Source: Lachnospiraceae bacterium
Lineage (GTDB): Bacteria > Bacillota > Clostridia > Lachnospirales > Lachnospiraceae
Direction of reading: 5' to 3'
Length of the DNA stretch: 64,000 nucleotides
Assembly: GCA_021201665.1 (NCBI GenBank)
Contig: JAJQEO010000115.1
Location: forward strand, 1-64,000
Positions 2,323 to 17,082 of this stretch are shown piece after piece (the stretch's first letter is position 1; the number at the start of each line of letters is the position of its first letter). The notes beneath the pieces are model-generated. The model saw only the letters and a program-made list of their open reading frames with translations, searched no databases and had not been told where the DNA came from. Made by a program: the position numbers and the translations under genes.

Positions 2323-2364
2323 ATGATGTGCATAGACTGTAATATCAGAGTGCTTACTGATTGA

Positions 2365-2414
2365 GAAAATCCAGAGGGTTGTGTCCTCCTTCAGCTCTCT
2401 GGATTTTCTTTTTT
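2365..2414 (+). terminator. Rho-independent terminator
   Basis: A perfect 12-bp stem (GAAAATCCAGAG with CTCTGGATTTTC, loop 20 bases) is followed by six T residues at 2409-2414. It ends the transcript of the 108-aa gene and shows that the open frame reading through it from 2361 is not a natural gene start. Confidence 0.85.
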
Positions 2415-2441
2415 GTTGGTTTTTCCTTGACACAAGGAGAT

Positions 2442-3249
2442 CTTTCCCGTTTCGGCAGGAACCATCTGGAAATGGGGAATTACCTGGGAAAGATTTTCCC
2501 GTTTCTGGGTGTCCGCTTTATCGCGGTCTGCGACCATTACGACAACATGGACAGGGATCCGGAGACGCTGGCTGTTCAGCTGAAAAATCTTGTGAATGAA
2601 CTTTATGCAAAGGACATTTCCGTGAAAATCCGCTCTTCAAGGGAGAAACAGTGGGAGCGCGGCAGCTTCTGCGGGCGTGATCCCGCATATGGATACGGTG
2701 TGGTGAAAGAGGGGAACATCCGGAAACTGGTGATCGAGGAAGAGCCGGCGGCGGTTGTGCGTGAGATTTACCGGAGGTTTCTGGACGGAAGCGGATATCC
2801 GGAGATTATTGAATGGCTGTATGCGGAAAAAATACACAGGCCGGGGGATTACCGGAAATACAGGCACGTCCGGCAGCAGGAAGGCGAGGAACTGCATAAC
2901 TGGCATAAGGCGACCATCAACCAGATCCTGAACAACTGCGTTTACATCGGGTATCTGATCTGTGAACAGGTGGACGGAAAACGTGTGGGAGGCCGGAAGA
3001 GTTTTGATGTCATTAACGACAACTGGAAAGTGCGGAAGGACAATCATGAGCCGATTATCAGTAAGGAAGATTTTGAAGCGAGCGTGAGGAAGTTTGAAGG
3101 GCGGTCGCTGAAATATTCATCCGGAGCTTCTAAAAATCTTCCGCTGGATGAGGATATTTATAAGGGGCTTCTGGTCTGCGGGGAGTGCGGCGCGAGGTTT
3201 GGCAGAGCCGCCGGGCTGACCGGAGACGGAAAAACGAGGAATTACCAGT
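2442..3249 (+). pseudogene. Serine recombinase remnant, truncated at both ends
   Basis: Homology starts abruptly at DLSRFGRN (base 2442) just after a terminator and T-rich linker, so the catalytic N-terminus is missing. It keeps the end of the resolvase domain (EMGNYLGKIFPFLGVRF), the recombinase domain and the first zinc-ribbon pair (CGECGARFG), then stops at NYQYV. It is paralogous to the recombinase at the left edge. At about 3250 the sequence changes directly into the middle of a sigma-factor gene, so the second zinc pair and coiled coil are lost too. It cannot be an active recombinase. Confidence 0.85.
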
Positions 3250-4833
3250 ATGTGTGAGAGCATAGATACAAATCCAGAGATTTCCATGGAATATCAGGAT
3301 CGGAAACGCCTGATCAGTGAAATCCTGGATGAATTGCCGCCCGAACAGAGAGTCGTTCTCTCCATGTTTTTCATGCAGGAGATGAGCACAAAAGAAATCG
3401 CCGAGACGCTCGGTGTCAGTGAGAGTACCGTAAAAAGCCGGAAAGCTTACGGCAAGAAAAAAGTAGAAGCCAGCGTCAAAACTCTGGAGAAGAAGGGCGT
3501 CAATCTCTGGGGACTTACCGCGGTTGGGTTCTTTGCATGGCTGCTTAAAGGAATTGATGTGGACGCGGCAGAGCTGCCGGCGGAGACGGTGTTGTTGTTT
3601 ATTCGACGGGAAATTTTTAATACTTCGGCGAGCGGAGCATCAGCTGACACGATGGGTAGCCAGATGGCTAAAACAGCGGAGAAAACCACCGCTTCTCAAA
3701 CTGGAAAGACTGCTGCCAAAGAAATCGGGAAGACTGCAGTAAAAAAAGTCGGGAAGACAGTCGTCAAAGAAGTGGGAAAAGCTGCTGCAACGGTGATCGG
3801 AAAGACAACAACGACGAAGCTTTTGATCGGTGTGGTGACTGTGGCGGTGGCAGGAACCGGCGTGGGGGAGATTGCTCAGAATATAGGAAACAGTCGGACG
3901 GCGGTGGTGAGTGAATCGGCAGAAGTGACTGCGGAGATGGAAACCGAAGAAGCTGTAGAAAAACAAACCGCATACAAGGAGACAGAGCTGGTTGAGACGG
4001 AAATGGAATTGCAGTCAGAGTCTGAAATGGAAACCGAATCAGAAACGGAAACAGGATTAGAAATAGAGTCAGGAACTGAAACCGATGCTGTTGAAGGTAC
4101 ATCATCTGACAACAGTGGAGAACGGCCAGGATACACTGCATCAGACTATATGTCGGTAGGCAATTATATCGGGGTTACTGTTACGGATATTGAAGTAGAT
4201 GAGGTTAGTGACTATGATATTGTATCCTGGATAAATGCGCGGGCAGAGGATCAAGGGCTGGATTGGGAGATTTCCAATCTGTATGAGCTGACGTACGATA
4301 TGGTTTCTTCTGCAAGCGGAGGGAACAGCTATACGGTGGACACATATATTGAGCATATTGGCAGTTTTATACAAGAACGACGAGAATTGTATCGTATAAA
4401 GAATCTTTTTGTTGATATATGGCAGGCTGTGTCGGATACATATGTTTTTGAAGGATTCCCGGAGGATACATATAAATATGATACTGAGACAGTTGACATT
4501 GTTGCCGAATATGGAGCACGTTTTGGTTTATCTAAGGAAAAAATGGAAGAAGTTTTGGAGGATCATCCAGATACAATGGATTTGATCATTGAAAAAGTTG
4601 AAAATCACCTTCAGGAGGAGATGATCCTTCATTATATTGCGGATGAACAAAATATTTCCTACGACATGGTTTCTGATGAGGAAAAACGACAGATTGCTGT
4701 TATGTATGGATATGAAAGTTATGAGGAATTGCAGAAGCATTATGATCAGGATGATATAGATTATTATTCTCTTTATCTGCGGGTGGCTCAGTATGTCGTC
4801 AGCAAGGCTAATATCGTAGTGGCCAATGAATAA
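3250..4833 (+). CDS. N-truncated sigma-like protein with TM and trigger-factor-like ectodomain
   Basis: 527 aa. Residues 1-100 match the second half of the sigma protein at 9867-12143 almost residue for residue (NPEISMEYQDRKRLI, LPPEQRVVLSM, LGVSESTVKSRKAYGKKK = sigma region 4). The zinc ribbon and sigma region 2 are missing because the gene is cut at its junction with a recombinase remnant. A Lys/Thr/Gly repeat (roughly residues 140-185), one TM helix (about 195-215) and a Glu/Ser/Thr stalk follow. The last ~180 residues resemble the C-terminal arms of trigger-factor/FKBP-type chaperones (EYGARFGLSKEKMEEVL, MILHYIADEQ) without the FKBP core. Without region 2 it should not act as a complete sigma factor. 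Its start is only the first ATG after the junction, with no convincing ribosome site, so it may be untranslated. Confidence 0.65.
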   Translation: MCESIDTNPEISMEYQDRKRLISEILDELPPEQRVVLSMFFMQEMSTKEIAETLGVSESTVKSRKAYGKKKVEASVKTLEKKGVNLWGLTAVGFFAWLLKGIDVDAAELPAETVLLFIRREIFNTSASGASADTMGSQMAKTAEKTTASQTGKTAAKEIGKTAVKKVGKTVVKEVGKAAATVIGKTTTTKLLIGVVTVAVAGTGVGEIAQNIGNSRTAVVSESAEVTAEMETEEAVEKQTAYKETELVETEMELQSESEMETESETETGLEIESGTETDAVEGTSSDNSGERPGYTASDYMSVGNYIGVTVTDIEVDEVSDYDIVSWINARAEDQGLDWEISNLYELTYDMVSSASGGNSYTVDTYIEHIGSFIQERRELYRIKNLFVDIWQAVSDTYVFEGFPEDTYKYDTETVDIVAEYGARFGLSKEKMEEVLEDHPDTMDLIIEKVENHLQEEMILHYIADEQNISYDMVSDEEKRQIAVMYGYESYEELQKHYDQDDIDYYSLYLRVAQYVVSKANIVVANE

Positions 4834-4944
4834 TGGATTCGAAATGATGTTGCCGCACTCCCCGCATGACGTGTTTTTTGGGACGGTTCGCAGGTACGAT
4901 CATGGGTTACAAAAGAAAGTAGACTGTTTGCAGGAGAAAAGAGA

Positions 4945-5220
4945 ATGCATGAGGAACAATCCCTGCCTCCGGCGTGGCAGGACTGGACAATTACAGAACG
5001 AATCGGAAGAGGTTCTTTCGGGACGGTTTATAAGGCGGAGAGACCAGTATCGGCGGTTGGAGCTGATCAAATTGCCGCGGCCGGTATGACTGTTCCGAAA
5101 GGAATTGGATGGTTGCCAGAAAATATAAAGATTCCGGGGCTTCTCCAATGTCTGTCACCGAACGAAGACGAAACCTTCGAAAATCAGCGTCTCGCCATCG
5201 AAAACAAATTGTGGCAGTGA
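4945..5220 (+). pseudogene. Ser/Thr protein kinase N-lobe remnant
   Basis: Starts with a good ribosome site (AGGAGAAAAGAG) and reads WTITERIGRGSFGTVYKAER, the glycine-rich ATP loop of Hanks-type kinases. The sequence after AER no longer looks like a kinase: there is no VAIK lysine, HRD or DFG motif before the stop at 5220. A change of frame within 5109-5150 leads into a basic juxtamembrane stretch, a TM helix and an ectodomain, which is the normal continuation of a receptor kinase. The two halves are best read as one gene that lost its catalytic core. Confidence 0.7.
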
Positions 5221-5867
5221 TTATGGTTGTTGTTGTTGTTGTTTTGGCTGGTGCGGCCAGAGGAATCTGGTTTGAATATTTTCGCTTGCAACAACAGTCT
5301 GCTCCGGCATTAGTTAGTATCTATGAACAGCCAGATGTTAAAAGCACGGTGATTGGAAAGCTTTCTGAGGAGCCTACAGATCTTACAGGAAATTATACGG
5401 AAGACTATCTTTGGGGAGAAGTTTATATAGATAGTGAAAAAACTGAAACAGGTTGGATTCAGCTCTCTGCTATTATGACCGCAGCGTTGACAATGATAGC
5501 AACGGAAAATCTTGCTGATGAAGAAATAGAAATGCCAGAAACTCAGGAGGACACAGAGATACCAGAGACCGATCGTGCAGAGTTAAGCAATACGAGTGAT
5601 GAGAGTATTATGAGCCAGGCTGTAGATGACTTTGTGGAAAGCCTACTAAATACGTTTAATTTGTCTGTAGGAGAAGAGGATAAACCGTCAGCAGCAATCT
5701 GGATGTCAGGCTCAAATGCGAAGTGCTATTCCTCAGATACAGCAGTTGTGACGGTAAGCAGTCAAGGGAAAGTGACCGCAGTTGGAACCGGAACGGCATA
5801 TGTAGTGTTTATGGTGGTGAATGGGCCTTATAGCTTGACTCAGGCTTATAAATATGTTGTTACCTAA
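5109..5867 (+). CDS. Membrane protein with SH3-like and Ig-like ectodomain (kinase tail)
   Basis: 252 aa in a frame different from the kinase scrap it overlaps. It has a basic segment (RRRNLRKSASRHRKQ), a TM helix of Val/Ile (about residues 34-52), then an extracytoplasmic bacterial SH3-like repeat (IYEQPDVKSTVIGKL ... GWIQLSAI), an acidic linker and a BIG2-like strand set (SSDTAVVTVSSQGKVTAVG). I infer that it is the outer half of the broken receptor kinase. No strong ribosome site precedes the ATG at 5109 or at 5148, so independent expression is doubtful. Confidence 0.55.
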   Translation: MVARKYKDSGASPMSVTERRRNLRKSASRHRKQIVAVIMVVVVVVLAGAARGIWFEYFRLQQQSAPALVSIYEQPDVKSTVIGKLSEEPTDLTGNYTEDYLWGEVYIDSEKTETGWIQLSAIMTAALTMIATENLADEEIEMPETQEDTEIPETDRAELSNTSDESIMSQAVDDFVESLLNTFNLSVGEEDKPSAAIWMSGSNAKCYSSDTAVVTVSSQGKVTAVGTGTAYVVFMVVNGPYSLTQAYKYVVT

Positions 5868-6093
5868 TAATAGAAAAGGTTATTGAGGCGCTTGTGCGCA
5901 CGTACGATTTCGACTAGAGTTATGCGGAGCAATCCGCATATCTACTAAAGAAAAGATGAAATTGGTTCATAAGGTAGCTGTTAAATAGCTACTTTTGGCG
6001 TTCTAAACCCAATTTAGAACATGTAAAAAGAGCGGAATCTCAGAATGTTTTGAACCGCCGAGAACGCTCCATTTAACAATAGGAAGAGCAAAG

Positions 6094-6772
6094 ATGAGTA
6101 ATGTAAGATTTCGTGACCAGTGTGGCTGCGAGTTAAGTGAGGAATCAAAATTTTGTCCGAATTGTGGGCGAAATCAGCTGAAATTAATACAAATACATCG
6201 ACTTATGGAAATAGCTATAGCGATTCGGCGACAAAACAGGCAAAAAGAAAAAGCAGGATGCGGATTATTATTATCGTCGTGATTTTGCTGGGCGCTGCGG
6301 TGGGATTTGGAGCATGTTCAGAAATGAAGGGAGGACCTGGAAAGGCGTTGGAAGCAATGGTACACATGTTACCGGGCGCTCACGATTCGAAATCAACAGA
6401 TTCATCAGACAAAACGGATGATGAAGGGAATGGAATAGCAATTGAGATGGAGATACTTATGCCGGGAAATGGATAGATGGCGCATTGACAGGCTATGGTA
6501 TTTCGTTCTCGGCAGAAGGAAACGAATATGCCGGGGAATGGGTAGACAGCACTCGTGCAGGTTATGGTGTCTATTATTGGACAGATGGAGACATTTATGC
6601 CGGGAAATGGGCAGATGATCTTCAGGCAGGCTATGGCGTTATAAACTGGTCAAACGGTGTCATCTATGCCGGAGAGTGGGATGGCGGTGACCGGACTGGC
6701 TATGGCATCCAATACGATGAAGATGGCTCATCAATATCGGGCTTATGGAATGACGGTATTCCTCAAGAATAG
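6094..6772 (+). pseudogene. Frameshifted zinc-ribbon / TM / MORN-repeat protein
   Basis: Three frames carry one protein. Frame 1 from ATG 6094 (AGGAAGAG upstream) gives a zinc ribbon ending FCPNCG. One G missing from the GGG at 6166-6168 would restore CPNCGAKSAEINTNTS and lead into a TM helix (MRIIIIVVILLGAAVGF). A second shift just before 6448 leads into GDTYAGKWIDGALTGYG and then MORN units (EYAGEWVDSTRAGYGVY, IYAGKWADDLQAGYGV, IYAGEWDGGDRTGYGI). The first zinc ligand is also lost (RDQC where CDQC is expected). Two frameshifts plus a ligand mutation mark decay. Intact relatives would be membrane-anchored and expose MORN repeats outside the cell. Confidence 0.75.
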
Positions 6773-6995
6773 ACTGGCTGTTGTTTAGGCTCTGAAAGTC
6801 GTCGTATCAAAATTGATGATTGACAAATAAGTCCCGGACTGGTAAAGTGAAATTACTTTTATTTGTGTTTATGTGTGAATCTGTGTTTGAGAAAATCGGA
6901 TTTGAGAAAACCTTGTTTGACAAAATCTGACCTGGGGAAACGTACCTCCTGTGTATAACGGATAGTTATCCGATTTCAGAAGGAGGGACGACAAA

Positions 6996-7955
6996 ATGAA
7001 AAAGAAACTGGAGGAACTGAACCTTACAGACAACTTTCTGTTTGGTTCAATGGTAGAGCGAAAAGGGACCGGCGAGGAGTTTGTGCGAGCACTTCTCGAG
7101 GTGATTTTTGGGCGGAAATTTGGGGAAATACGGATTGTTCCGCAGAAGGTTTACAGCGGGGCTGATACGGATCTCCACGGCGTGCGGCTTGATGTCTATG
7201 TAGAGACGGAACCTGATGGTGACGAGGACGGCCCTCCGAAAGCTTCTGTTTATGATGTGGAGCCGGAGCAGAACGACAGTAAGGCAGCCGTGCAGGGGCT
7301 TCCGATGCGTACGCGGTTTTACCGCGCAAAAATTGATGCGGCAAGCCTGGGCAGCGGAGAGGATTATCGTTGCCTGAAACGGGTTACCGTGGTGATGATT
7401 GTGACATTCGATCCATTTGGAAGTGACCGAATGGTTTACACGATCCGGAATATGTGTCAAGAAGAGCCGGGACTCTCTTATGAGGACGGCGCGCGGACAC
7501 TGTTTCTCTATACAAAAGGGAAGCGCGGAAGAACGAGGAAAAATCTGCGTGAGCTTCTCCACTATATGGAAGATACGACAGAGGAGAACGCGGTGAATCC
7601 GACACTCAAAAGAATACATAAGACGGTGGAACAGGTCCGGCATGATAAGGAGGTATCACTGGGTTATATGAAAATTTTTGAGAGAGAAGAGATGCTGCGT
7701 GAGGAAGGCCGGGATGCGGAAAAGGTCAATACAGAGCGGGAACGTCTGCGTGCGGATGTAGCAGAGCAAAAAGCAGACGCTGCAGAGCAAAAAGCGGACG
7801 CTGCAGAGCAAAAAGCGGACGCTGCAGAGCGGAGAGCAAAAGAAGCGGAAGCAGAGAATGCTGCCCTTATGCAGAAGCTGAGTGATGCCATGGAGAAAAT
7901 GCAGGAGCTTTCTCAGGAGGTTGCGCAGCTGCGGCAGCAGGTGAAGCCGGCGTAA
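6996..7955 (+). CDS. Rpn-family PD-(D/E)XK nuclease / transposase-like protein
   Basis: 319 aa; GGAGG lies 8-9 bases before ATG. The N-terminal half has the Rpn/PDDEXK_2 hallmarks: MKKKLEELNLTDNFLFG, then the metal-binding pattern GVRLDVYVE ... SVYDVEPEQN and KRVTVVMIVTFDPF. These proteins cut DNA and promote recA-independent recombination. The C-terminal ~100 residues form a coiled coil built in part from a seven-residue tandem repeat (AEQKADA, three copies). An inverted repeat (CGGATA-GT-TATCCG, 6960-6973) precedes the ribosome site. A scrap of a second Rpn 3' end lies at 9656-9697, so the family has been duplicated here. Confidence 0.8.
   Translation: MKKKLEELNLTDNFLFGSMVERKGTGEEFVRALLEVIFGRKFGEIRIVPQKVYSGADTDLHGVRLDVYVETEPDGDEDGPPKASVYDVEPEQNDSKAAVQGLPMRTRFYRAKIDAASLGSGEDYRCLKRVTVVMIVTFDPFGSDRMVYTIRNMCQEEPGLSYEDGARTLFLYTKGKRGRTRKNLRELLHYMEDTTEENAVNPTLKRIHKTVEQVRHDKEVSLGYMKIFEREEMLREEGRDAEKVNTERERLRADVAEQKADAAEQKADAAEQKADAAERRAKEAEAENAALMQKLSDAMEKMQELSQEVAQLRQQVKPA
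7761..7823 (+). repeat. 21-bp tandem repeat x3 inside rpn gene
   Basis: Three contiguous 21-base units (consensus GCAGAGCAAAAAGCGGACGC plus T) encode the heptad AEQKADA. One mismatch among units indicates recent expansion of the coiled coil. Confidence 0.85.
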
Positions 7956-7992
7956 ATTAAGCCTGTGGTAGAAACAGGGTAAATTGGATTGA

Positions 7993-8041
7993 AATCAGGG
8001 GAGCTTTTTGCTGTGATGCCTGCAAAGAGCTCCTTGATTTA
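7993..8041 (+). terminator. Probable terminator after rpn
   Basis: Long stem with AAATCA/TGATTT base, GGGAGC/GCTCC and TTTTTGC/TGCAAAG pairing. The downstream sequence is T-rich but lacks an uninterrupted run. The rest of 7956-8406 holds a T-rich stretch that recurs near 9700 and another hairpin, and no gene. Confidence 0.55.
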
Positions 8042-8291
8042 TTTACTGAAACAAATAAATCTGAAAATTTTGAAGATGAGTATTCCCTCTATCCAGTTTT
8101 ATACCATTTTTGCGCTGATTCCACTCTGTTTTATCATACGAGCGAACATTTTTTCGCCCGTCTCGTGAAAATGTTGAACATTAAAATGGAGATTACAAAC
8201 CGGGCAAGCCCAGTTTCAAAATCGGGTGTAAACACATCCTCAAGGTCGGACATCACTGCGGCATTCGCAGCTGAAGTATCTAAAAGAAACA

Positions 8292-8328
8292 GAAAAGGTT
8301 TCCTTCTTCCTTGGAGGGGAACTTTTTC
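8292..8328 (+). terminator. Hairpin with T-tract, repeated module
   Basis: GAAAAGGTTTCCTTCTTCC pairs with GGAGGGGAACTTTTTC with small bulges, giving a U-rich 3' side. A closely related hairpin with the same downstream CTTTAC occurs at 9751-9783 and a worn copy near 15400. Confidence 0.5.
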
Positions 8329-8406
8329 TTTACGTGCAATCTTTGCCGTGTGATACAGTGTCATTACAGAAAGGCGATAACGGAAAAGAAAAAGGAGGAA
8401 ACACAG

Positions 8407-8901
8407 ATGAATGATCAGTTTGCATATTTGAAAAAGTATTCCGATGTTTATGATGCAGTGCTGGAAGTAAACAGGCGAATCAGCCAGCGGGACTGGACGG
8501 TATCAATACAGAAAATGCGCACCGCAGCAGAACGTATGCTGAAACATGTTTATCAATTGTATGGCGAGGTCAGCCGGGATTTGGATTTCTGCAATTCCAT
8601 TAATCAGCTTCATAAGGCAGGGATCATATCTCAGAAATCAGCCGGGAATTATCATCGGATCCGGATGATCGGAAACGAGGCTGTTCATTGCAACGTGAAT
8701 TACGCTGAGCAGGAAACCCGGGGAGTTTATGGGGTGCTTTTGGAAGAATCGGTTCTCTTTGCGGAGCGGTATATGGTACAGACGGATCCACATGGAAGAG
8801 AGCGTCTGAGAAGAGTGGCATTAGACGTGCCTGCTCCGGCGGCATATTCGGCACCGGCTCGGGAGAAAAGAAATAACGCATATAAATATAAGGTGAGGTG
8901 A
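8407..8901 (+). CDS. DUF4145-type protein
   Basis: 164 aa from ATG 8407, chosen because AAAGGAGG lies 8 bases upstream; the open frame further upstream runs through the hairpin module. Residues 20-120 resemble DUF4145 (RTAAERMLKHVYQLYG, INQLHKAGIISQKSAGNYH, IRMIGNEAVHCN), a helical domain common in restriction- and phage-defence-associated proteins and typically lacking a known activity. The C-terminus is Pro/Ala/Arg-rich. There is no membrane segment. A symmetric hairpin (8908-8942) follows the stop. Confidence 0.65.
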   Translation: MNDQFAYLKKYSDVYDAVLEVNRRISQRDWTVSIQKMRTAAERMLKHVYQLYGEVSRDLDFCNSINQLHKAGIISQKSAGNYHRIRMIGNEAVHCNVNYAEQETRGVYGVLLEESVLFAERYMVQTDPHGRERLRRVALDVPAPAAYSAPAREKRNNAYKYKVR

Positions 8902-8953
8902 TATTGAGATAAGTTCATGGTGCCTGGCATCATGAATTTATCTGGGATGAAAA

Positions 8954-9652
8954 TTAACCAGTGACCGGCGTTATCTGAATCCGGAGCTGAAGGAGATGTT
9001 TTTTGCACTGAATCTGATTGAATCCTATGGCTCCGGGATTCGGCGCGCGAAGGATGCGATGGCGGATAATGGGTCGCCGAGGCTGCAGTTCCTGCCTGAT
9101 AATGACTCGGATGATTACACAATGGCGGTTGTAAGAATCAATGAAGAATTCGCTGCTGTACGCAGGGAAGAGGAAGGGAAGGTTTCTCTGGCGGCAAGTG
9201 GCGATGGGAAGGAAAGTATTCAAAAAATACCGCAGGGAGAATCGATTACCCAGGAAGTTACCCGGGAAATACTGCAAGGAGCATCAATTACCCAGGACGC
9301 TACCCAGGAAACACCGCAAAGAGCATCAATTACTCAGGAAACATCGCAAGAAGCACCAATTACCCAAGAAATTACCCAAGAAATTACTCAAGAAATTACT
9401 CAAGAAACGCTACAGGACTCATTGATTACCCAAGAAATACGAAAAGATGATGAAATTGCTCAGGAAATCGAGATTACTGCAAAAATCAAACATATTATGT
9501 CAGATGATCCTGGGATAAGTTTAAAAGAAGTGGCGATCAGATTGAACGTTAAGTTTGATTCTGTGCGGTATCGGGTAAAGCAGATGAGGAAAAACGGTGA
9601 AATACGCCATGAGGGTTCTACTAAATCCGGCAGATGGCTTGTATTAAAATGA
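8954..9652 (+). pseudogene. C-terminal fragment of AlbA_2 / RecG-like ATP-binding regulator
   Basis: Homology starts before the first ATG: codons from 8954 read LTSDRRYLNPELKEMFFALN, continuing LIESYGSGIRRAKDAM. This is the end of the HATPase_c_4 domain of AlbA_2 (Schlafen-like) proteins. A stop at 8948 and the missing ~350 upstream residues show truncation. The rest is an ITQE tandem repeat linker (12-base units around 9356-9405) and a winged helix (DPGISLKEVAIRLNVKFDSV). Translation from ATG 8996 would give 218 aa with a possibly functional DNA-binding tail. Confidence 0.65.
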
Positions 9653-9655
9653 GGA

Positions 9656-9697
9656 GGAGGCTGCGCACCTTCGGCAGCAGGTGACGCCGGCGTAAAT
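9656..9697 (+). other. Relic of a second rpn 3' end
   Basis: GGCTGCGCACCTTCGGCAGC through GCCGGCGTAAAT matches the last 13 codons and stop of the Rpn gene (bases 7919-7957) with few changes. The T-rich stretch after it also resembles the one after 8080, so a whole rpn-tail/hairpin module has been copied. Confidence 0.6.
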
Positions 9698-9750
9698 GAT
9701 AACTTTTGTGCTTTGATTCCTCTCGGTTTTATTACATGGGAAAACATTTC

Positions 9751-9783
9751 AAAAAAGTTCCTTTCTCCGGAGAGGGACTTTTT
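9751..9783 (+). terminator. Terminator hairpin directly upstream of sigma gene promoter
   Basis: AAAAAGTTCCTTTCTCC pairs with GGAGAGGGACTTTTT. The T-run ends one base before the -35 box, so upstream transcripts are stopped just where the next promoter begins. Confidence 0.65.
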
Positions 9784-9784
9784 C

Positions 9785-9815
9785 TTTACAGCCTCAGAAA
9801 TGAAGTTGATATAAT
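9785..9815 (+). promoter_or_regulatory. Extended -10 promoter of the ectodomain sigma gene
   Basis: TTTACA/TTACAG at 9785-9791 and TGATATAAT (TATAAT 9810-9815) with a TGN extension. The following CGGCTTATCAAGAA is shared with the promoter at 15428-15457. Confidence 0.75.
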
Positions 9816-9866
9816 CGGCTTATCAAGAAACGGTATTATAACAAGTCGGACCGGAGGAGAAAAAGT

Positions 9867-12143
9867 ATGGGGGAAATAGCTTCAACAAATAGGAACTGTT
9901 ATAATTGCAGCGCAGTCATAGACCGAAATGCATGGATGTGCGGAAACTGCGGCGTGCCGCAGCCGGAATTGATTCATCAAATTGTGGAAAATAACCAGTC
10001 TGCTTTTGAGTCTCTGTATCGCTATAGCTATCAGCGTGTTTACTGGACGATTCATTCCATGGCAGCCCTGGACGAGGATACGATCTGTGATTTGATACAG
10101 AATACGTACATCAAAGTATACGCGTCTATTGCTCAGTTAAAGGATATTGCGGCATTGAATGCCTGGATCAGGCGGATCGCCCAGAATGTGACGCTTGACT
10201 ATCTGCGAAAAAAAGAAAAAAGCAGACTCATCTTTTTCTCAGAACTAGTTCCGGATGATTCAGAACTGGACGAACCGGATTTTGAGGACGAAAGTGTCGA
10301 TGCAAATCCTGAGATTTCCATGGAATATCAGGATCGGAAGCGCTTGATTGATGCAATCCTGGATGAGCTGCCGCCGGAGCAGAGAGTTGTTCTTTCCATG
10401 ATTTTCATGCAGGAGATGAGCGTAAAGGAAATTGCCTCGAAGCTTGGAGTCAGTGAAAGTACCGTAAAAAGCCGGAAAGCCTATGGCAAGAAGAAAGTAG
10501 AAGCAAGTGTCAGAGCTCTGGAAAAGAAAGGAGTCAGCCTCTGGGGACTTACCGCGGTTGGGTTCTTTGCATGGCTGCTCAAAGGGATCGATGCGGATGC
10601 GGCAGGGCTGCCGCCTGAACAGCTTTTTCAGAAAATTCTGGAGAAGGGAAGAAACAATGGCGCGGCAACGAATGCTTCAGCAATTTCAAACTCCTCCCAT
10701 TCGGGCGGATCGGGATCCGGCAGGCAGGAAGGTGCTGCCGAAGGGAAAGGTACAGGCCAAATGGCACCAGGGACACCTGCATCCCCAGATAGCAGGAAGG
10801 AAAATGAAAGCTATAGTGGTTCGCCGAATCAGAACAATCAAGGAAATGGGAAGCAGGCCGCTGCTGCATCAGATACAGCTAAAAAGGCTGCAATAGTCAA
10901 AAAAGTCATGATTGGGGCAGCAATTGTCGCAGCCCTTGGAATTGGAGGCGGCATGTTTTTGCTGAACCAGAACGGCAGATCGACTGACGTAGTGGAAGTT
11001 TTGACACAGGCAGAGCGGAATACCGAATCAATGAGTGAAGCACAAATGGAAACAGAATCTGATGAACAGACCGAACTTTTTTCGGAAGTGGCAGAGTACA
11101 TAGTGGAAACAGAGCGAAGCGAATTGAGAGAGGAGCTGTCAGAAACTGCGGCGGAGGCTGTATCTCAGATACAGACAGAACTGCAGTCAGAGCAGGAAAC
11201 AAAAGCGCAGACCGAGCAGCAGTCAGAGCAGACGACAAAAGCGCAGCCAGAGCAGGCGGCAGAACAGGCAACAGAAGCAGAGTCTGAGCAGATCATCGTG
11301 ATTGGAGAGGACACATCAGATGAGACGGGGCTGGATGAGAACGCTTCGGAAAACGAGAATGCTTCCGAAAATGAAAGTATTTCAGAAAATGAGAATACAA
11401 ATGAATCTGGTGGATCAGGCTCGATGTCCTCGGCGGAAACTATTTTGAGTACAATTCAAAGCCTGGGCTATGAGTATATTGGCGGGCAGCAATATGAGGT
11501 CTTATATCAGGGTGGACAGGCATACACAGAAAACGCTGGGATGGATCAGGCACCTCCGGTCGGTATTGCTGCTTACACAGTGGATGATCTGGATGGCGAC
11601 GGACAGGAGGAACTGCTTCTGCTGCTTCTTGAAGAAACAGAGCGTATTTACGACACGAGCGGCCTGAAAGACTCGCGGGTGGCTTTTATTGTATGCGAAA
11701 ATGTCGATGGAGCATGGAGTGAGTCGCAGCGGATATCAGAAGTGGAGAGTTATGGGAGCGGAAGTAGTACAAATATTATGTCTGTTGCTGACGTATTGCC
11801 ATGCATTTCTACGTATCTGGTTTCGACGGATACAGGAAAGCATATTGTGATAGACAATCCATTCAATGGAAGTTTTTCTGCGGATAATTTATATTATATG
11901 ATTGAAATTATATACACAGAGAACTCTTTGAGCGGAATGTGCTATGGTTACGATGAGAGCGGGTATGAGAAAGCTGGTGAGTTATCTGATCAGATACAAT
12001 CTGGTAATGCAAAACTGATCAGCCGGATCTATGTTTCTGATTTTTATGATGATCAGAACAATTTGCTTTCTGACATGTACACTCGAATAGCAAGAGGAGA
12101 GTCTATATCTACAACCTTAGTGCTGGATGTATTTGAGGAGTAG
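9867..12143 (+). CDS. Membrane-anchored zinc-ribbon sigma-70 protein with ectodomain
   Basis: 758 aa; GGAGGAGAAA precedes ATG. Order: zinc ribbon (CYNC ... CGNC, residues 11-28); sigma region 2 (FESLYRYSYQRVYWTIH to IRRIAQNVTLDYLRKKE, about 45-117); sigma region 4 (LPPEQRVVLSM to KSRKAYGKKK, about 168-210); a conserved hydrophobic patch LWGLTAVGFFAWLLKG (225-240); a Gly/Ser/Asn linker; a TM helix (about 347-367); a Glu/Ser/Gln stalk; and a ~240-residue extracytoplasmic domain with a Ca-binding-like loop DLDGDGQEELL. Ordinary ECF sigma factors are ~180 aa and soluble. I infer a one-piece receptor whose outer domain controls an attached sigma factor, either by tethering or after proteolytic release. 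The patch at 225-240 could also touch the membrane, which would change the topology. Confidence 0.8.
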   Translation: MGEIASTNRNCYNCSAVIDRNAWMCGNCGVPQPELIHQIVENNQSAFESLYRYSYQRVYWTIHSMAALDEDTICDLIQNTYIKVYASIAQLKDIAALNAWIRRIAQNVTLDYLRKKEKSRLIFFSELVPDDSELDEPDFEDESVDANPEISMEYQDRKRLIDAILDELPPEQRVVLSMIFMQEMSVKEIASKLGVSESTVKSRKAYGKKKVEASVRALEKKGVSLWGLTAVGFFAWLLKGIDADAAGLPPEQLFQKILEKGRNNGAATNASAISNSSHSGGSGSGRQEGAAEGKGTGQMAPGTPASPDSRKENESYSGSPNQNNQGNGKQAAAASDTAKKAAIVKKVMIGAAIVAALGIGGGMFLLNQNGRSTDVVEVLTQAERNTESMSEAQMETESDEQTELFSEVAEYIVETERSELREELSETAAEAVSQIQTELQSEQETKAQTEQQSEQTTKAQPEQAAEQATEAESEQIIVIGEDTSDETGLDENASENENASENESISENENTNESGGSGSMSSAETILSTIQSLGYEYIGGQQYEVLYQGGQAYTENAGMDQAPPVGIAAYTVDDLDGDGQEELLLLLLEETERIYDTSGLKDSRVAFIVCENVDGAWSESQRISEVESYGSGSSTNIMSVADVLPCISTYLVSTDTGKHIVIDNPFNGSFSADNLYYMIEIIYTENSLSGMCYGYDESGYEKAGELSDQIQSGNAKLISRIYVSDFYDDQNNLLSDMYTRIARGESISTTLVLDVFEE

Positions 12144-12298
12144 CTTCCCCTTTTACTGCAGCAAAAGAAAAAGGGAAAAGCGATGGAGAATAAATCTGGC
12201 ATTATTAGCTGGAAATGCTTGTGAAACAGCGGCTTTGTGAAACAATCTTGCAGAAACGCCCCTGTCCGCGCGGCCTTCAAGAGCATGCTGTTTTTGGG

Positions 12299-12326
12299 TT
12301 GAAAAAAATGCCGTACCCGGTATAAT
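12299..12326 (+). promoter_or_regulatory. Promoter of beta-CASP gene
   Basis: TTGAAA (12299-12304), 16-bp spacer, TATAAT (12321-12326). The 12144-12298 stretch before it holds no gene or obvious structure. Confidence 0.65.
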
Positions 12327-12469
12327 AGATACTGATTGAAACAGCCACGGCTGTAATTGTCTTATGAATGATGATATAGAATGTGAGCGGAGCAAAGGCT
12401 GCAGATGGAATAATATATATGAACAGAAAAATATGAGAAACGGAGCGATACATATACGTGGAGACAACA

Positions 12470-15190
12470 ATGATAAACAATAATAACAATGCTTACAGAC
12501 TCAGCCTGGATTTTCTGGGCGGCGCGATGGAGGTCGGGGCCAGCTCGATCCTGGTTGAAATGTGCGGCCGGAGGATTTTGCTGGACGCAGGGATCCGGCA
12601 GAAGGCCGGGGCGGACCCGCTGCCGGATTTTCATAGAATACAGGAAAGGGGCGGCGTGGATGCAATCGTGGTCAGCCACGCCCATATGGATCACACCGGC
12701 AGTCTCCCGGTGATCAGCAAGGCGTACCCGAATGCGCGGATTTACATGACATCCATGACGATCGACCTGACAAGGGTGCTGCTCTACGACAGTATCAAGC
12801 TGATGAACCGGCAGGAGGAAGGGATTCCGGCCTATGCCGAGAAGGATGTGGAGCAGCTGTTTGGCAGGATGATGGCGGTCCGCTATGAGCAGCCGCTCGA
12901 AATTTTGCCGGGGATTACACTGACGATGTACCAGGCGGGGCATATCGCCGGGGCAGCCTGTGTGTATCTGACGAGCAAAGAGGGTTCTCTTTTTTATTCG
13001 GGAGACTTCTCCACATTTGCGCAGAATACCATCGAGGGAATCCGGCTTCCGAAGCTTCGCCCGGATGTCGCGATCGTCGAGTCCACATACGGTGACCGCT
13101 TGCACTCGAACCGGCAGGTGGAGGAGCAGACGCTCATTGACACGGCGGCGGAATGCATTGCAAAGGGCGGGAAAATGCTGATCCCGACGTTTGCTCTGGG
13201 ACGCGCCCAGGAGGTGCTGCTGATTCTGAAGAGAGCGATGAACAAAGGGGAGCTCCCGAAAACAAAAGTATATGTAGATGGCATGGTGCGGGATATGAAT
13301 ACCGCTTACAGCCGCAATCCCTGGTTTTTGAAAAATGCGCTCGCGAAAAAGGCGGAGCGCGGCGGGGATCTGTTTTATTCGGATGAAATCGTTGCGGTGA
13401 GCCTGAAGGACAATCGGGAGGAGCTGCTTAAAACAGCCGGCCCCGCGATTTTTGTGGCCAGCTCAGGAATGCTGACCGGCGGACCGAGTGTGGAATACGC
13501 TAAGAAAATTGCGCCGATGGAAAATGGCTATATTGTCATCACCGGTTATCAGGACGAAGAGGCGCCGGGGCGGCAGATCGTGGAGCTTCTGGACGATGGA
13601 ATGAAGAAAGCTGCAGATACTCGCTTCCTCACTCTCGGCGGCACCAGAGTGCCGGTTCGCTGCACCCTGCGCCGGGCGGGACTTTCCGCGCATGCGGACA
13701 AGGCTGAGATTGAAAATCTTCTGGAGCGCCTTTCCGCGCGGAATGTCTTCCTTGTGCATGGTGATAAGGAAGTGATTCCGTCCCTGGCGAAGGATCTGCA
13801 GCTGGATTACCGCACCAGGGTGTTTGTGCCGAAGGACGGTGACTCGGAGGAAATTTTTCTGAAAAATCCCCGGCAGCAGCTGAAAAAGAGCTTCCCATGG
13901 AGCATGCAAAGGGATGGCAGCCCGGAGGGGAAAGAAAAAGAGTTTTATCAGTATTTAACGGAGCATTATCCGAATGGGAAATTCACCATCGCGGAGCTTG
14001 CCTATATCTGGAGCGGACGCCATAATCTGCCGGAAGAGGCTCTTGCCGGCCTGCAGGAGATCCTGACGGCGAGTCCTTATTTTGACAGAGACGGGAAACG
14101 GCTGTTCCTTTTCGTCTGCAGGAGCGAGGAGGATATACAGGAGGATGAGAAAAAGGCAAACACCATGACGCCGCAGCGGCTGCAGCAGGAGATAGAGCAG
14201 TGCTTTGCCGGGTTTCCTTATCGGAAAATCAGCTATTTTATGGAAAAAGAGGAGGTACAGCTGCTTTTTGATTTTCCGAAGGAGGTGGAAGATCGGTTTG
14301 AAGTGGCAGCCCGGCAGTTCCATGAGAGAACGGGCTGGACGGCGCAAAGAAGCCTGGAGCCAAACGAGCATGCCATGCAGACCTTTTTGCATGCAAGGCT
14401 TGGAAGTGCAGTGCAGAAAATTTCGATTCGGAAGATGGAATCCACCGTGGCTGTACGCCTTTTGCGGATGCCGGAGAGGGCAGTGATGCAAATAAAATCA
14501 GACCAAATATCGGAAGAACAAATCGAACCAGGCTGGATTTTGGAGAAGATAGCCTGCGAGTTTGAGCAAAAGACCGGGTACCGGCTGATCCTTGAAGGGG
14601 AAGGAATCCAGGCACATCCATCGACAACAAGGAAAGATGAAATTTCCGGAGGTATGGCTCCGGGAAGCGCTGAAGGTGGGAATCCGGCGGCCCTGGCCGC
14701 GAAACAAAGGTCACAGAACGGATTCTTCTGGCCGTCGGCGAAGGAGCATATACAGGAGGATACCCCAGGCAGTCAGAATGGCTGTCCGCGTCCTGTTGAG
14801 CAGAATTTGGCGATGTCCTGTATTGATTCAGAATTTGCCGACGAAAGATATCTTCCATATAAAAAGAGCATTCTGAGTGATGAGTTTGGAAAGTACATCC
14901 AGCTTTCTTTCTTGTCTCCGGCACTTGGATTCCGTGAGCAGGGCGTACTGCAGCGCATTGCGGCTCAGACCGGATGGCGTGTGAGAATTGCGCCGGGTGT
15001 GAACCAGAACGCAATACAGTCCCTTGCACAGCGGCTCTGCCAGGAAAACGGTGTGAGGCTGCGGAAGCTGCCTTCCTACCTGCCCGGGACACAGACTCTG
15101 GTACTAAAGCCTGCTGACGCATCCGCAGAGATGGAAAAAATCTGCCGGAGGCTGGAAGAAGAGACGGGGATCGCGTGCCAGGTGGAGTGA
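12470..15190 (+). CDS. Beta-CASP metallo-beta-lactamase-fold RNase-like protein with long C-terminal extension
   Basis: 906 aa from ATG 12470 (GGAG 6-7 bases upstream; a GTG at 12458 overlaps that site). Residues 1-460 are a CPSF73/YSH1-type exonuclease: GGAMEVGASSILVE, the zinc motif SHAHMDHTG, AGHIAGAACVYL, YSGDF, ESTYGD, the beta-CASP insert with PTFALGRAQEVL, and the late motifs GLSAHAD and FLVHGDKE. Such enzymes process or degrade RNA using two zinc ions. The remaining ~450 residues are unusual: repeated weakly related blocks (KISYFMEKEEVQLLFDF; KISIRKMESTVAVRLL; KYIQLSFLSPALGFREQG) suggest a duplicated alpha/beta nucleic-acid-binding module, separated by a Gly/Ser-rich linker. Stand-alone transcription unit. 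Confidence 0.85.
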   Translation: MINNNNNAYRLSLDFLGGAMEVGASSILVEMCGRRILLDAGIRQKAGADPLPDFHRIQERGGVDAIVVSHAHMDHTGSLPVISKAYPNARIYMTSMTIDLTRVLLYDSIKLMNRQEEGIPAYAEKDVEQLFGRMMAVRYEQPLEILPGITLTMYQAGHIAGAACVYLTSKEGSLFYSGDFSTFAQNTIEGIRLPKLRPDVAIVESTYGDRLHSNRQVEEQTLIDTAAECIAKGGKMLIPTFALGRAQEVLLILKRAMNKGELPKTKVYVDGMVRDMNTAYSRNPWFLKNALAKKAERGGDLFYSDEIVAVSLKDNREELLKTAGPAIFVASSGMLTGGPSVEYAKKIAPMENGYIVITGYQDEEAPGRQIVELLDDGMKKAADTRFLTLGGTRVPVRCTLRRAGLSAHADKAEIENLLERLSARNVFLVHGDKEVIPSLAKDLQLDYRTRVFVPKDGDSEEIFLKNPRQQLKKSFPWSMQRDGSPEGKEKEFYQYLTEHYPNGKFTIAELAYIWSGRHNLPEEALAGLQEILTASPYFDRDGKRLFLFVCRSEEDIQEDEKKANTMTPQRLQQEIEQCFAGFPYRKISYFMEKEEVQLLFDFPKEVEDRFEVAARQFHERTGWTAQRSLEPNEHAMQTFLHARLGSAVQKISIRKMESTVAVRLLRMPERAVMQIKSDQISEEQIEPGWILEKIACEFEQKTGYRLILEGEGIQAHPSTTRKDEISGGMAPGSAEGGNPAALAAKQRSQNGFFWPSAKEHIQEDTPGSQNGCPRPVEQNLAMSCIDSEFADERYLPYKKSILSDEFGKYIQLSFLSPALGFREQGVLQRIAAQTGWRVRIAPGVNQNAIQSLAQRLCQENGVRLRKLPSYLPGTQTLVLKPADASAEMEKICRRLEEETGIACQVE

Positions 15191-15211
15191 GAAATCGTAT
15201 ATACTTATGGA

Positions 15212-15396
15212 ATGACGGAACTTTCCTGTCGTGAGCGGGAAGATGCACGTAAGCGAAGGATGGCTGGCGAGGCTTTGCCCAGACCGATAGATGTGAGTGA
15301 CGCTCTCGCGGAGATTATTCTGAAGGCCTGCGCATTTGACCCGGCCAGGCGGATTCACAGCAATCTGAGCCAGACGGATCGGGGAAGGTATCTTTC
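15212..15396 (+). pseudogene. Ser/Thr kinase C-lobe remnant
   Basis: Codons read RMAGEALPRPIDVSDALAEI then ILKACAFDPARRIHSN, the end of the C-lobe of PknB-like kinases (the conserved final Arg-containing helix). Nothing of the N-lobe or catalytic loop precedes it, and the frame then runs into a worn hairpin. With the N-lobe scrap at 4945 this shows that at least one receptor kinase gene was dismantled here. Confidence 0.65.
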
Positions 15397-15427
15397 TTAT
15401 TCGTTTCCGGCAGAGGGAACTTTTGGA

Positions 15428-15457
15428 TTACGGCCTCCAAAACAGGGCTGATATAAT
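15428..15457 (+). promoter_or_regulatory. Extended -10 promoter of Ig-like gene, shared with 9785
   Basis: TTACGG (15428-15433), 18-bp spacer, TGATATAAT (TATAAT 15452-15457), followed by CAGCTTATCAAGAA. From GATATAAT through CAAGAA it differs from the promoter at 9785-9815 at one base in 22. Confidence 0.75.
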
Positions 15458-15523
15458 CAGCTTATCAAGAATACGAACACGTAAGTGAACAAACACGCAA
15501 GTACATGGGAAGGAGAAATTCGT

Positions 15524-16192
15524 ATGAAAAAGAGAACTGTTTTGGGAGTAATCGCACTGTTGATAATGCTGCTGGCAATCCCGGCATCTGCGTCCGCAGC
15601 CTCTGTAAAGCTTAACAAGACCAAAATGACGGTCTACGTAGGGCAGAAGAAGACACTGAAGGTGAGCGGTACGAGCAAAACGGTAACGTGGTCCTCTTCT
15701 AAAAAAAGTGTCGCCAAAGTAAGCAGTAAGGGAGTCGTCCGCGGCATAAAGGCCGGCACGGCGACAATTACAGCTAAGGTGGGATCGAAAACCTATAAGT
15801 GCAAGGTTACGGTAAAAGAAAACACCTGGGATGCAGGATACAATTTCGACAATGCAAATTTCTGGAAAAAAGTTTCGGCGCAGCGCTATACAGGCTCATA
15901 TACTGTAAAAGTATATCCGGCTTATATGAAATATGATGAATCAGGACAATTGTGTGTTATTTTAGCTGTAAGGAATGAGACTGCCGGAAAAACTTATACC
16001 CTGAAATCTGCGGTCGTTAAATTTGTGGATGAATCGAAGGAAGTAATTGCGAGCGGGTATTTTAAAAATCTCAACCGTAAAATTAAGCCAAATACTGTGG
16101 AATACATAGCCCTCCGATTTTCGAGCCAGTCAACAAAACAGTATGTAGCTTTGAAAAATGGAAACTTTATGTATTCGATTTCAGTCTTTTGA
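15524..16192 (+). CDS. Secreted Ig-like (BIG2) protein
   Basis: 222 aa from ATG 15524 (AAGGAGA upstream; an upstream ATG at 15485 lacks one). A Sec signal peptide is visible: MKKRTVLGVIALLIMLLAIP then ASASAA. Residues ~28-100 form a BIG2 domain (KLNKTKMTVYVGQKKTLKVS ... KGVVRGIKAGTATITAKV). The last 110 residues are a second beta-sandwich-like domain, with a FxxxN pattern similar to streptococcal/clostridial surface modules, not identified. There is no LPXTG motif or TM anchor. Its promoter matches that of the ectodomain sigma gene, and PP2C starts 17 bases after its stop, so the three may be co-regulated. Confidence 0.75.
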   Translation: MKKRTVLGVIALLIMLLAIPASASAASVKLNKTKMTVYVGQKKTLKVSGTSKTVTWSSSKKSVAKVSSKGVVRGIKAGTATITAKVGSKTYKCKVTVKENTWDAGYNFDNANFWKKVSAQRYTGSYTVKVYPAYMKYDESGQLCVILAVRNETAGKTYTLKSAVVKFVDESKEVIASGYFKNLNRKIKPNTVEYIALRFSSQSTKQYVALKNGNFMYSISVF

Positions 16193-16209
16193 TTAAGGAG
16201 AAGTTTTAT

Positions 16210-17082
16210 ATGAGCGTCCAGATAGAATACGCCGGCACCTGCTTTCAGGGGCTGGTGCGCAAGAATAATGAGGATAATTTCTGGTGTGATAATGAATATT
16301 TAAGCTGTGAGAACCATGGGCTGGATGAAGTATTTTCCGGCAGGCTGCAGTGCGCGGAATGTCCGGCCTTCGCTGTTTTTGACGGAATGGGCGGAGAGGA
16401 ATGCGGCGAGGTCGCCGCATTCCTGGCCGCAGATACCTTTCATTATATTTTTGGGAAAGGCTCGGGAAAAAAATCCGGAGAAAATTCAGAAGAAAATTCG
16501 GGAGAAATTTCCGGGATAAGCGCTGGAGAAAATCCGGGAGAAATTTCCGGGATGAGCGCCTGGAAAAGCTCAGAAAAAAAAGCTGAAAAAAGCGGCGATG
16601 GGGAGGATGTCCGCTTGTTGTGCCAGCAGATGAATGATGAAATCTGCCGGTATGCCGCGGAGCACAGGATTCGTTCTATGGGCTGCACGGCGGCGCTGCT
16701 GCTTTTTGATGATTCTGGTGTATACGCGGCGAATGTGGGGGACAGCAGTATTTTTTGCTTCCAAAATCACAGACTGAAAAAAGTGTCTGTGGATCATGTG
16801 TGCAGCAGTCCATTATATCGGAAACCTCCCCTGACACAATTTCTGGGGATTCCATCGGAAGAAATGCTGCTGAGCCCGCATATCGAGAGAATGGAAGCTG
16901 ACGGGGATATGCAGTTTCTGCTCTGCTCGGATGGCCTGACGGATATGTTAGAGGAGAGGGAAATTGAGGCTGCTCTGGATGAAGCGAAATCCTTGCGCCA
17001 GGCTGTGGAATACCTGAAAGCGGAAACTCTGCGCAGGGGCGCGCTGGACAATACGACGATCATTTTATGCGGATTGCAATGA
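16210..17082 (+). CDS. PP2C-family Ser/Thr protein phosphatase
   Basis: 290 aa from ATG 16210 with AAGGAG 9 bases upstream. Catalytic motifs of the PPM family are present: RKNNEDNF near the N-terminus, VFDGMGGEECGE, NVGDSS, LLCSDGLTDML and the final DNTTIILC, which place Asp residues on two Mn/Mg ions. Between the DGMGG region and the core is a ~50-residue Gly/Ser/Glu/Lys insertion with internal repetition (GEISGISAGENP / GEISGMSAWKSS). PP2C enzymes usually reverse Hanks-type kinases, and the only kinase pieces nearby are dead. Its partner must be encoded elsewhere or lost. Confidence 0.9.
   Translation: MSVQIEYAGTCFQGLVRKNNEDNFWCDNEYLSCENHGLDEVFSGRLQCAECPAFAVFDGMGGEECGEVAAFLAADTFHYIFGKGSGKKSGENSEENSGEISGISAGENPGEISGMSAWKSSEKKAEKSGDGEDVRLLCQQMNDEICRYAAEHRIRSMGCTAALLLFDDSGVYAANVGDSSIFCFQNHRLKKVSVDHVCSSPLYRKPPLTQFLGIPSEEMLLSPHIERMEADGDMQFLLCSDGLTDMLEEREIEAALDEAKSLRQAVEYLKAETLRRGALDNTTIILCGLQ

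Follow-up and report, generated by a model that had tools for sequence, protein, structure and literature searches.

Candidate one-piece membrane ECF sigma factors with a conserved patch and varied outer domains in Clostridia, found through a largely decayed gene cluster of a Lachnospiraceae bacterium

Canonical signalling by extracytoplasmic function (ECF) sigma factors involves a sigma factor, an anti-sigma factor and proteases. One-piece membrane ECFs are already known in Actinobacteria and Pseudomonas. In IutY (ECF243) of Pseudomonas putida, a sigma factor and a membrane-anchored regulator are described as parts of one chain, which is released by Prc and RseP (PMC8999054). For ECF48, ECF52 (SCO4117) and ECF53 of Actinobacteria, the same source gives an ECF head and one or two C-terminal transmembrane (TM) segments, with an outer domain in SCO4117 (PMC8999054). 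In the SigI/RsgI system of Clostridium thermocellum, as outlined in its source, paralogous membrane regulators are assigned to individual substrates and RseP cuts within the TM helix (PMC12203970). The subject of the present analysis is a stretch of 64,000 nucleotides (the window; positions 1 to 64,000 of contig JAJQEO010000115.1, assembly GCA_021201665.1) from a Lachnospiraceae bacterium, whose 4.71-Mb draft genome comprises 121 contigs with 97.7% completeness and 6.15% contamination. A previous sequence-only reading had proposed that a cluster of one-piece receptors, each with a regulatory head, a TM helix and an exchangeable ectodomain, is located there. We concentrate on the sigma protein encoded at 9867-12143, a type occurring in gut bacteria, which is probably an ECF-type sigma factor that is tethered to the membrane, carries a sensor of its own and is freed by membrane proteolysis. 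Judging from the sequences, its family is a separate Clostridia design of one-piece membrane ECF, marked by a characteristic conserved patch and by ectodomains of unusual variety. The protein is composed as follows.

9867-12143, plus strand: intact one-piece sigma protein, 758 residues (open reading frame, sigma-domain matches, family search)
9897-9950, plus strand: N-terminal CxxC...CxxC zinc-ribbon-like motif, residues 11-28 (sequence pattern)
10014-10217, plus strand: sigma region 2, residues 50-117 (Sigma70_r2, E = 3.3e-7)
10341-10496, plus strand: sigma region 4, residues 159-210 (Sigma70_r4_2, E = 2.5e-15)
10521-10586, plus strand: conserved hydrophobic patch 3' of sigma4, residues 219-240 (column conservation in 61 proteins)
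10905-10961, plus strand: TM helix, residues 347-365, with KK just before it (hydropathy)
10962-11429, plus strand: acidic stalk rich in S, T, E and Q (sequence, family composition)
11430-12140, plus strand: ectodomain, 237 residues (sequence comparison)

The reading frame is uninterrupted and its start is preceded by a ribosome-binding site. The protein matches the sigma70-ECF superfamily (E = 5.1e-28, 97.8 bits), and the solved structures closest to it are ECF sigma factors. It has both sequence regions of an ECF-type sigma-70 factor, region 2 and region 4, while the second copy of the window, starting at 3250, lacks region 2. The order of zinc ribbon, sigma2, sigma4, TM helix and ectodomain suggested earlier was confirmed by Sigma70_r2, Sigma70_r4_2 and hydropathy, the four N-terminal cysteines by pattern only, as the Pfam family DZR reached no more than E = 0.03 and stayed below its cut-off. 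By pattern search, this motif is present in 15 of 61 one-piece family members. An anti-sigma domain between sigma4 and the TM helix was not detected by Pfam at E<=1, and the RsgI N-terminal domain matched neither this protein nor appeared among the best 25 of 30 Pfam families for 3250-4833. The ectodomain gave no Pfam match and is confined, within the genus, to the window genome and the genomes G014 and G016 (3/47). In the bacterium's own genome, eight matches were found, of which only 9867-12143 and the truncated copy at 3250 have this layout.

To follow the family, 299 genomes of the bacterial family were searched with a six-row alignment of the head (E<=1e-20). Matches were obtained in 67 genomes at 83 places, 52 of them in frames of 342-1069 residues and 31 in frames of 156-243 residues, with none between. 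From 49 stretches holding 50 long matches (the remaining two are those of the window) and some named loci, 69 long proteins were left when two duplicates had been dropped. Eight of them (L085, L136, L139, four in L137, and L138) were excluded, the patch or the TM helix being absent or the protein irregular, and 61 were analyzed. Some of the excluded proteins are sigma fusions of their own kind: those of L137 and L138 (four in one locus) are long, have no patch and continue with a TM segment straight after sigma4, while those of L136 and L139 comprise about 1060 residues with a different C-terminal part and no TM segment by hydropathy. In the 61 members, the patch has the approximate consensus E-K-K-G-x-K-L-Y-S-x-A-P-x-P-F-L-L-L-L-F-R, its most constant leucine is conserved in 57, and between 17 and 147 residues (median 61) lie between its end and the TM helix.

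A 42-row model including the patch was then applied to 397 family genomes (E<=1e-46) and matched 64 places in 48 genomes and 45 of 334 genera, in frames of 369-1003 residues. At 61 of these places, in 46 genomes, the match extends to the patch. Eighteen places belong to previously unsearched genomes, two of them being rows of the model. Conservation of the patch, which had been conjectured from its identity in the two window paralogues, is thus seen both in the columns of the 61 proteins and in the matches of the model. In a class-wide sample, 208 of 391 genomes were matched at E<=1e-30, mainly by ordinary ECFs. Among the matches listed, stop-free ones in short frames end by model position 193, mostly near 180, before the patch core, and the two or three short-frame matches that extend beyond this contain stops; long frames that include the patch were recorded in at least seven families, that of the window and six others. 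Members from three of the six were inspected and possess a TM segment. Outside the window's family, the phylum sample yielded the patch in 0 of 398 genomes at E<=1e-46, a threshold that would miss weaker members such as those of G515 (about 1e-44). A wider spread in the phylum was considered and dropped: of four genomes matched at this threshold, two belong to the window's family, and of the other two matches one stops short of the patch and one contains a stop codon. Presence of the whole protein on plasmids was dropped too, as none of the plasmid records spans 80% of it.

A tree of the heads (sigma2-sigma4 columns, FastTree, one run) placed 67 of 68 one-piece heads in a single clade with a support of 0.92. 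None of 38 conventional ECFs fell into this clade, while four of six other long sigma fusions did. The ratio of nonsynonymous to synonymous substitution rates (dN/dS) between three heads was 0.08-0.10, with dS near 1. A lack of region 2 activity in the relatives had been named beforehand as contradicting the proposal; at the level of sequence, their predicted region 2 is retained. In the literature searched (titles and the beginnings of abstracts), no description of this one-piece patch family was found; an earlier listing among the ECF groups is possible.

Conventional ECF loci served as a control for the gene neighborhood. From 27 loci, three were dropped because the sigma frame was lost in the open reading frame filter. 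A single-TM gene close downstream, i.e. the layout of an anti-sigma gene, was present in 22 of the remaining 24, compared to 5 of 58 one-piece loci (Fisher p=4e-13). By eye, the five genes encode a kinase, a lipoprotein-like protein, a ligase-like protein and two zinc-ribbon proteins. The one-piece genes do not form canonical ECF/anti-sigma pairs, since only these 5 of 58 loci show the layout and none of the five is an evident anti-sigma. Pfam analysis of 106 neighbor proteins yielded 123 families, and none of the 25 most frequent ones is an anti-sigma family. Neighbor families recurring in at least 4 of the 58 loci were, by eye, ABC-type ATPases, a sensor kinase, zinc-ribbon/TM proteins (five loci), Hanks kinases, sigma heads, lipoproteins, a dehydrogenase, a transporter and a secreted protein, and no evident anti-sigma was among them.

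Membrane anchoring is suggested by a segment of 19 residues with a mean hydropathy of at least 1.69, which follows the patch in all 61 aligned members. The linkers before it are net basic (8.7% lysine plus arginine, 5.8% aspartate plus glutamate), and the first 57 residues behind it are strongly acidic (6.9% and 25.2%, respectively). Regarding K/R, T/S/N/Y and leucine, the ectodomains come close to 24 lipoprotein-like proteins encoded in these loci and differ from 225 proteins lacking a TM segment. By hydropathy and composition, a C-terminal TM segment and an outer part are thus present on the sigma chain, as expected for a one-piece membrane ECF, and the likely layout places the sigma head in the cytoplasm and the sensor outside. 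A cytoplasmic C-terminal part, which would contradict the sequence-only reading, is disfavored by this secreted-like composition, which falls short of proof. The possibility that the patch itself is a full second TM helix was rejected, as the mean over 19 residues reaches 1.6 in only 4 of 61 members; a short or re-entrant element is likelier.

The ectodomains vary strongly. Sixty of them fell into 38 BLAST clusters at E<=1e-4, with 29 singletons, and Pfam assigned five families at E<=0.001, each in one or two members. That such variety would be absent from other genomes had been named beforehand as a refuting outcome; it is seen in them. Lachnospiraceae strain NC2004 harbors five copies of the gene. 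In four copies compared, the heads are 89-99% identical, the ectodomains share 25-32% in three of six pairs and do not match in the other three. The closest pair has 99% identical heads and 32% identical ectodomains; in blocks of 40 residues, identity is 98-100% up to about residue 200 and 20-50% from about residue 328 on. Because identity collapses at about residue 328 while the dS of the heads is only 0.21, the ectodomain appears to have been replaced rather than to have drifted.

The second one-piece gene of the window, which has lost its beginning, was analyzed together with the sequence on its left.

3250-4833, plus strand: truncated paralogue with sigma4, patch, linker, TM helix, stalk and trigger-factor-like ectodomain, region 2 absent (Pfam, blastn)
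3487-3552, plus strand: patch of the truncated paralogue (alignment)
4120-4830, plus strand: ectodomain related to secreted FKBP/Trigger_C proteins, FKBP part absent (protein search)
2361-3257, plus strand: serine recombinase fragment, joined at its 3' end to the sigma gene (base 3255/3256) (family match, blastn)

A truncated paralogue with the same sigma4 and another outer domain had been postulated at this place, and this description holds: sigma4 is matched at E=1.3e-15 without region 2, and from sigma4 to the patch the two window copies share 88% identity across 108 residues. The DNA from 3255 to 3619 is 92.6% identical to a sigma head in G016 (L039), and the TM stretch at 3793-3863 is 79% identical to this relative (blastn); beyond 3863 no blastn match to it was obtained at E<=1e-5. 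Up to base 3256, the DNA matches a serine recombinase, with 97% identity to that of G011. The combination of the two was seen in 1 of 47 genus genomes, that of the window alone, and the junction at 3255 may be real or an assembly chimera. The trigger-factor likeness of the outer domain was upheld in part. No trigger-factor model of Pfam or NCBIfam matched it at E<=10, but two inspected relatives carry FKBP_C and Trigger_C. Matches were found in 39 of 47 genus genomes; apart from the window copy, they are 20-28% identical across residues 50 to 235 approximately, and in several relatives the main match is preceded by another piece of better conservation (residues 1-47). The two relatives inspected (L252 850-2226 and L258 640-2271) both start with a signal-like segment, in one case with a lipobox. 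By these matches, the outer domain appears to be related to secreted trigger-factor-like proteins minus the FKBP section and may have been captured from a secreted gene of the FKBP/Trigger_C type.

Most other genes of the proposed cluster are decayed.

4945-5091, plus strand: kinase relic covering residues 1-46 of an intact relative (comparison with the intact relative)
5109-5867, plus strand: kinase relic, TM helix and immunoglobulin (Ig)-like ectodomain, residues 360-598 of the intact relative (Pfam, comparison)
6094-6772, plus strand: zinc-ribbon/TM/MORN relic, frameshifted (Pfam, blastn)
6996-7955, plus strand: Rpn-type gene, common to the G016 cluster (TIGR01784, 45.4 bits, below the cut-off of 52.1)
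8407-8901, plus strand: DUF4145 gene, shortened (Pfam, comparison with G016)
15221-15361, plus strand: kinase C-lobe scrap, residues 263-309 (comparison with the intact relative)
15524-16192, plus strand: Big_2 protein with signal-like N-terminus, ribosome-binding site and ATG present (Pfam, sequence)
16210-17082, plus strand: PP2C-type phosphatase, ATG with ribosome-binding site (family match)

The sigma gene of G014 is surrounded by three kinase genes, and that of G016 (L039 130-18751) lies amid four kinase genes and J-domain, zinc-ribbon, DUF4145 and Rpn-type genes. The kinase and zinc-ribbon genes of the window are relics of a cluster that is intact in relatives; the bulk of the window's cluster is decayed, and one of its two one-piece sigma genes is intact. 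A broken kinase with a TM helix and an SH3/Ig ectodomain had been suggested; the broken kinase and an Ig-like end related to L039 were recovered, while Pfam called no SH3 domain in the relic. The Ig-like part scored 21.1 bits with Big_2, just under the cut-off of 22.8; the Big_2 matches of the L039 relatives are also under the cut-off, and SH3_3 lies above it in one of them. Elsewhere in the own genome, kinase-domain matches are 29-37% identical. The zinc-ribbon/TM/MORN relic was found as described earlier, with MORN at E=9.7e-13 and head, TM helix and repeats in different frames. The section 6070-6426 shares 81.6% identity with a G016 gene of the zinc-ribbon/TM kind, whose ectodomain is Ig-like where the window has MORN repeats. 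Near 8879, the window is devoid of the remainder of the DUF4145 gene and of nearly a whole J-domain/TM/SH3/Ig-like gene present in G016. The kinase C-lobe scrap and the PP2C phosphatase had likewise been recognized correctly; the TTG start of the latter at 16189 in the open reading frame list has no ribosome-binding site, while the ATG at 16210 does. In addition to the recombinase fragment at 2361-3257, a recombinase gene is located at 33-1442.

When the last 130 residues were compared, the J-domain protein, the zinc-ribbon protein and three kinases of this cluster and the window relic all proved similar to each other (E 4e-10 to 3e-67), whereas similarity over the first 110 residues was limited to the kinases; a fourth kinase tested (L039 14994) is without this end. 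As the ends match and the heads do not, one Ig-like outer domain occurs on three kinds of head (kinase, J-domain and zinc-ribbon). Together with the 38 clusters, the NC2004 copies and the ectodomain of the truncated paralogue, this supports the earlier suggestion that heads and ectodomains recombine, and at the level of sequence their nature as separable modules is well supported, also beyond this window. A pairing of the kinases with the sigma family could not be sustained. Within the stretches collected around the 58 loci, a kinase of this type was nearby in five, one being the window relic and two representing one kinase on one contig, and a kinase partnership as a general trait of the family was therefore rejected. 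The pairing is apparently lineage-specific and the kinase/PP2C part a matter of local history.

Some further observations concern the window. A beta-CASP nuclease of 910 residues, nearest to the archaeal aCPSF1 (337.9 bits, below the cut-off of 580.2), is encoded at 12458-15190, with the sigma gene on one side and the Big_2 gene on the other. A sequence of 23 bases, in which a TGATA...TATCA inverted repeat encloses TATAAT, is located at 9807-9829 upstream of the sigma gene and at 15449-15471 upstream of the Big_2 gene. Among 47 genomes, one more copy was detected, located in G016 on the contig of the related cluster; the sequence is possibly a common promoter or operator. On the minus strand at 26977-30322, an ordinary ECF gene is followed by the gene of a 930-residue protein with a TM-like segment, which by eye may be its anti-sigma partner.

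The sequences show the architecture, the single clade of heads, the conservation of the patch, the missing partner gene of the usual layout and the replacement of ectodomains. We infer the topology of the protein from hydropathy, composition and charge, and we also infer sensing, cleavage, the role of the patch and the target genes. The sigma2-sigma4 head would reside in the cytoplasm, followed by the patch, a linker rich in A, G, S and T, the TM helix, the acidic stalk and the variable ectodomain outside. An outer signal would most likely cause a cut in or beside the TM helix by a protease of the site-2 type, and the freed head would direct the transcription of genes for surface proteins. Most likely, the patch would keep the head inactive or close to the membrane, and a separate anti-sigma gene would be unnecessary. 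Proteolytic release is transferred by analogy from IutY and RsgI as their sources present them. During evolution of the family, near-constant heads may have acquired new ectodomains whose relatives are secreted proteins, and a cell would thereby possess several receptors with nearly one head, probably acting on the same promoters. That a cis patch of about 20 residues replaces the anti-sigma in Clostridia-specific sigma receptors, and that paralogues with near-identical heads and unrelated sensors serve one regulon, is a tentative idea that we regard as doubtful.

Several explanations compete with this. It is unlikely that the locus is merely a decaying cluster linked to mobile elements and without present function, the recombinase junction being an artefact of assembly or decay. 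The two recombinase genes, a junction found in one of 47 genomes, the broken kinase, zinc-ribbon and DUF4145 genes and a draft genome with 6.15% contamination would fit, but the gene at 9867-12143 is intact, with a ribosome-binding site and intact relatives in many genera, and decay explains the neighbors of the gene, not the gene family. We consider it quite unlikely that the tethered sigma factor acts uncleaved, a ligand shifting the conformation of patch and head and RNA polymerase being recruited at the membrane. Long linkers (median 61 residues) might allow the head to reach DNA, and the neighbor families recurring in at least four loci include no protease. However, to our knowledge there is no case of a membrane-bound sigma factor driving transcription. 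Moreover, IutY, a one-piece membrane ECF with an experimentally characterised mechanism, is proteolytically released according to its description (PMC8999054).

The proteins might also be mainly surface proteins, in which the sigma head is a leftover feeding back on its own operon. This agrees with the likeness of the ectodomains to secreted proteins, with the often secreted-like neighbors and with the truncated window copy, which is still an open frame without region 2. It is nevertheless very unlikely, as the head is matched in 45 of 334 genera with dN/dS of 0.08-0.10 in three heads, and the NC2004 copies retain the head but differ in the ectodomain. That the ectodomains evolve very fast without any exchange, as the three NC2004 pairs still matching at 25-32% could indicate, is highly improbable. 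The drop in identity in the NC2004 pair was judged too much for one history in common with a head dS of 0.21, the truncated copy bears an ectodomain of a different known kind, and a single Ig-like outer domain occurs on heads without BLAST similarity to one another.

A number of points weigh against the tethered sigma factor with proteolytic release and the conserved patch. Presence of the patch in the 61 members is partly due to selection, since 8 of 69 long matches were excluded, and long sigma fusions of other designs occur among these. The 42-row model was itself built from family members, and 3 of its 64 places (one in G1187, two in G257) stop short of the patch. Topology was deduced from a hydropathy scan and composition and not from a trained predictor; the positive-inside tendency is modest, with more K/R before the TM helix in 35 of 61 members, equal numbers in 11 and the reverse in 15, and the member L140 has 38 residues only behind the TM helix. 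Two points in favor are of limited weight: the own genome possesses a Peptidase_M50 gene, which is little informative as 14 of 14 control genomes do too, and secreted-like proteins are encoded by 36 of 72 adjacent genes on the same strand versus 55 of 335 distant genes (p=9e-9), according to a classifier that is crude. A family-wide promoter motif was sought by eye in 30 upstream regions and abandoned, as none was common to them, the only repeat being that shared by the two window genes. Homology of the patch to the local anti-sigma domain was also dropped for want of support, as profile comparison with 23 proteins encoded downstream of conventional ECFs aligned the TM segment only; as no relation to the N-termini of these proteins is detectable, an inhibitory role of the patch is a guess.

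If the doubtful idea of Clostridia-specific receptors serving one regulon were correct, many inputs would be wired to a single transcription output by exchange of the outer half of one gene. The sigma family was matched in about one in eight sampled genomes of the window's family (48/397). The near-identical heads of NC2004 predict signal convergence, a testable point, and as a small, defined element the patch is a candidate for the cis control of a sigma factor.

Among the neighboring proteins, the kinases of L038 and L039 resemble Hanks-type PknB/Stk1 in having a kinase head, a TM helix and an outer part. By contrast, the outer parts are Ig-like or SH3-like instead of PASTA, and the scores are far under the NCBIfam cut-off for PknB_PASTA. 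The L039 relative of the zinc-ribbon relic shares with TcaA a zinc ribbon followed by a TM helix, a very weak likeness (20.8 bits, E=1.4e-4, cut-off 550); the outer domain of these TcaA-like proteins is Ig-like in L039 and consists of MORN repeats in the window. As to the sigma proteins, IutY, so far as it is described, likewise unites the sigma factor and a membrane-anchored regulatory part on one chain. It differs in its fused anti-sigma, which answers aerobactin, while in the present family no anti-sigma domain was detected and the ectodomain is highly variable. ECF48, ECF52 and ECF53 share the ECF head and the C-terminal TM segment and, in the case of SCO4117, an outer domain. Unlike the present proteins with their patch after sigma4, they are reported to have a zinc-finger, likely anti-sigma, domain in the extension; the zinc-ribbon-like motif found here is, if present, N-terminal. 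The anti-sigma domains of IutY and the actinobacterial groups were set apart from the window family by their descriptions. The outer domains of RsgI are varied as well. SigI/RsgI, as outlined in its source, nevertheless consists of two proteins with the sensor on the anti-sigma, whereas in the family described here the putative sensor is part of the sigma factor. With sensor and sigma factor on one gene, a new sensor could join an existing regulon by one recombination step.

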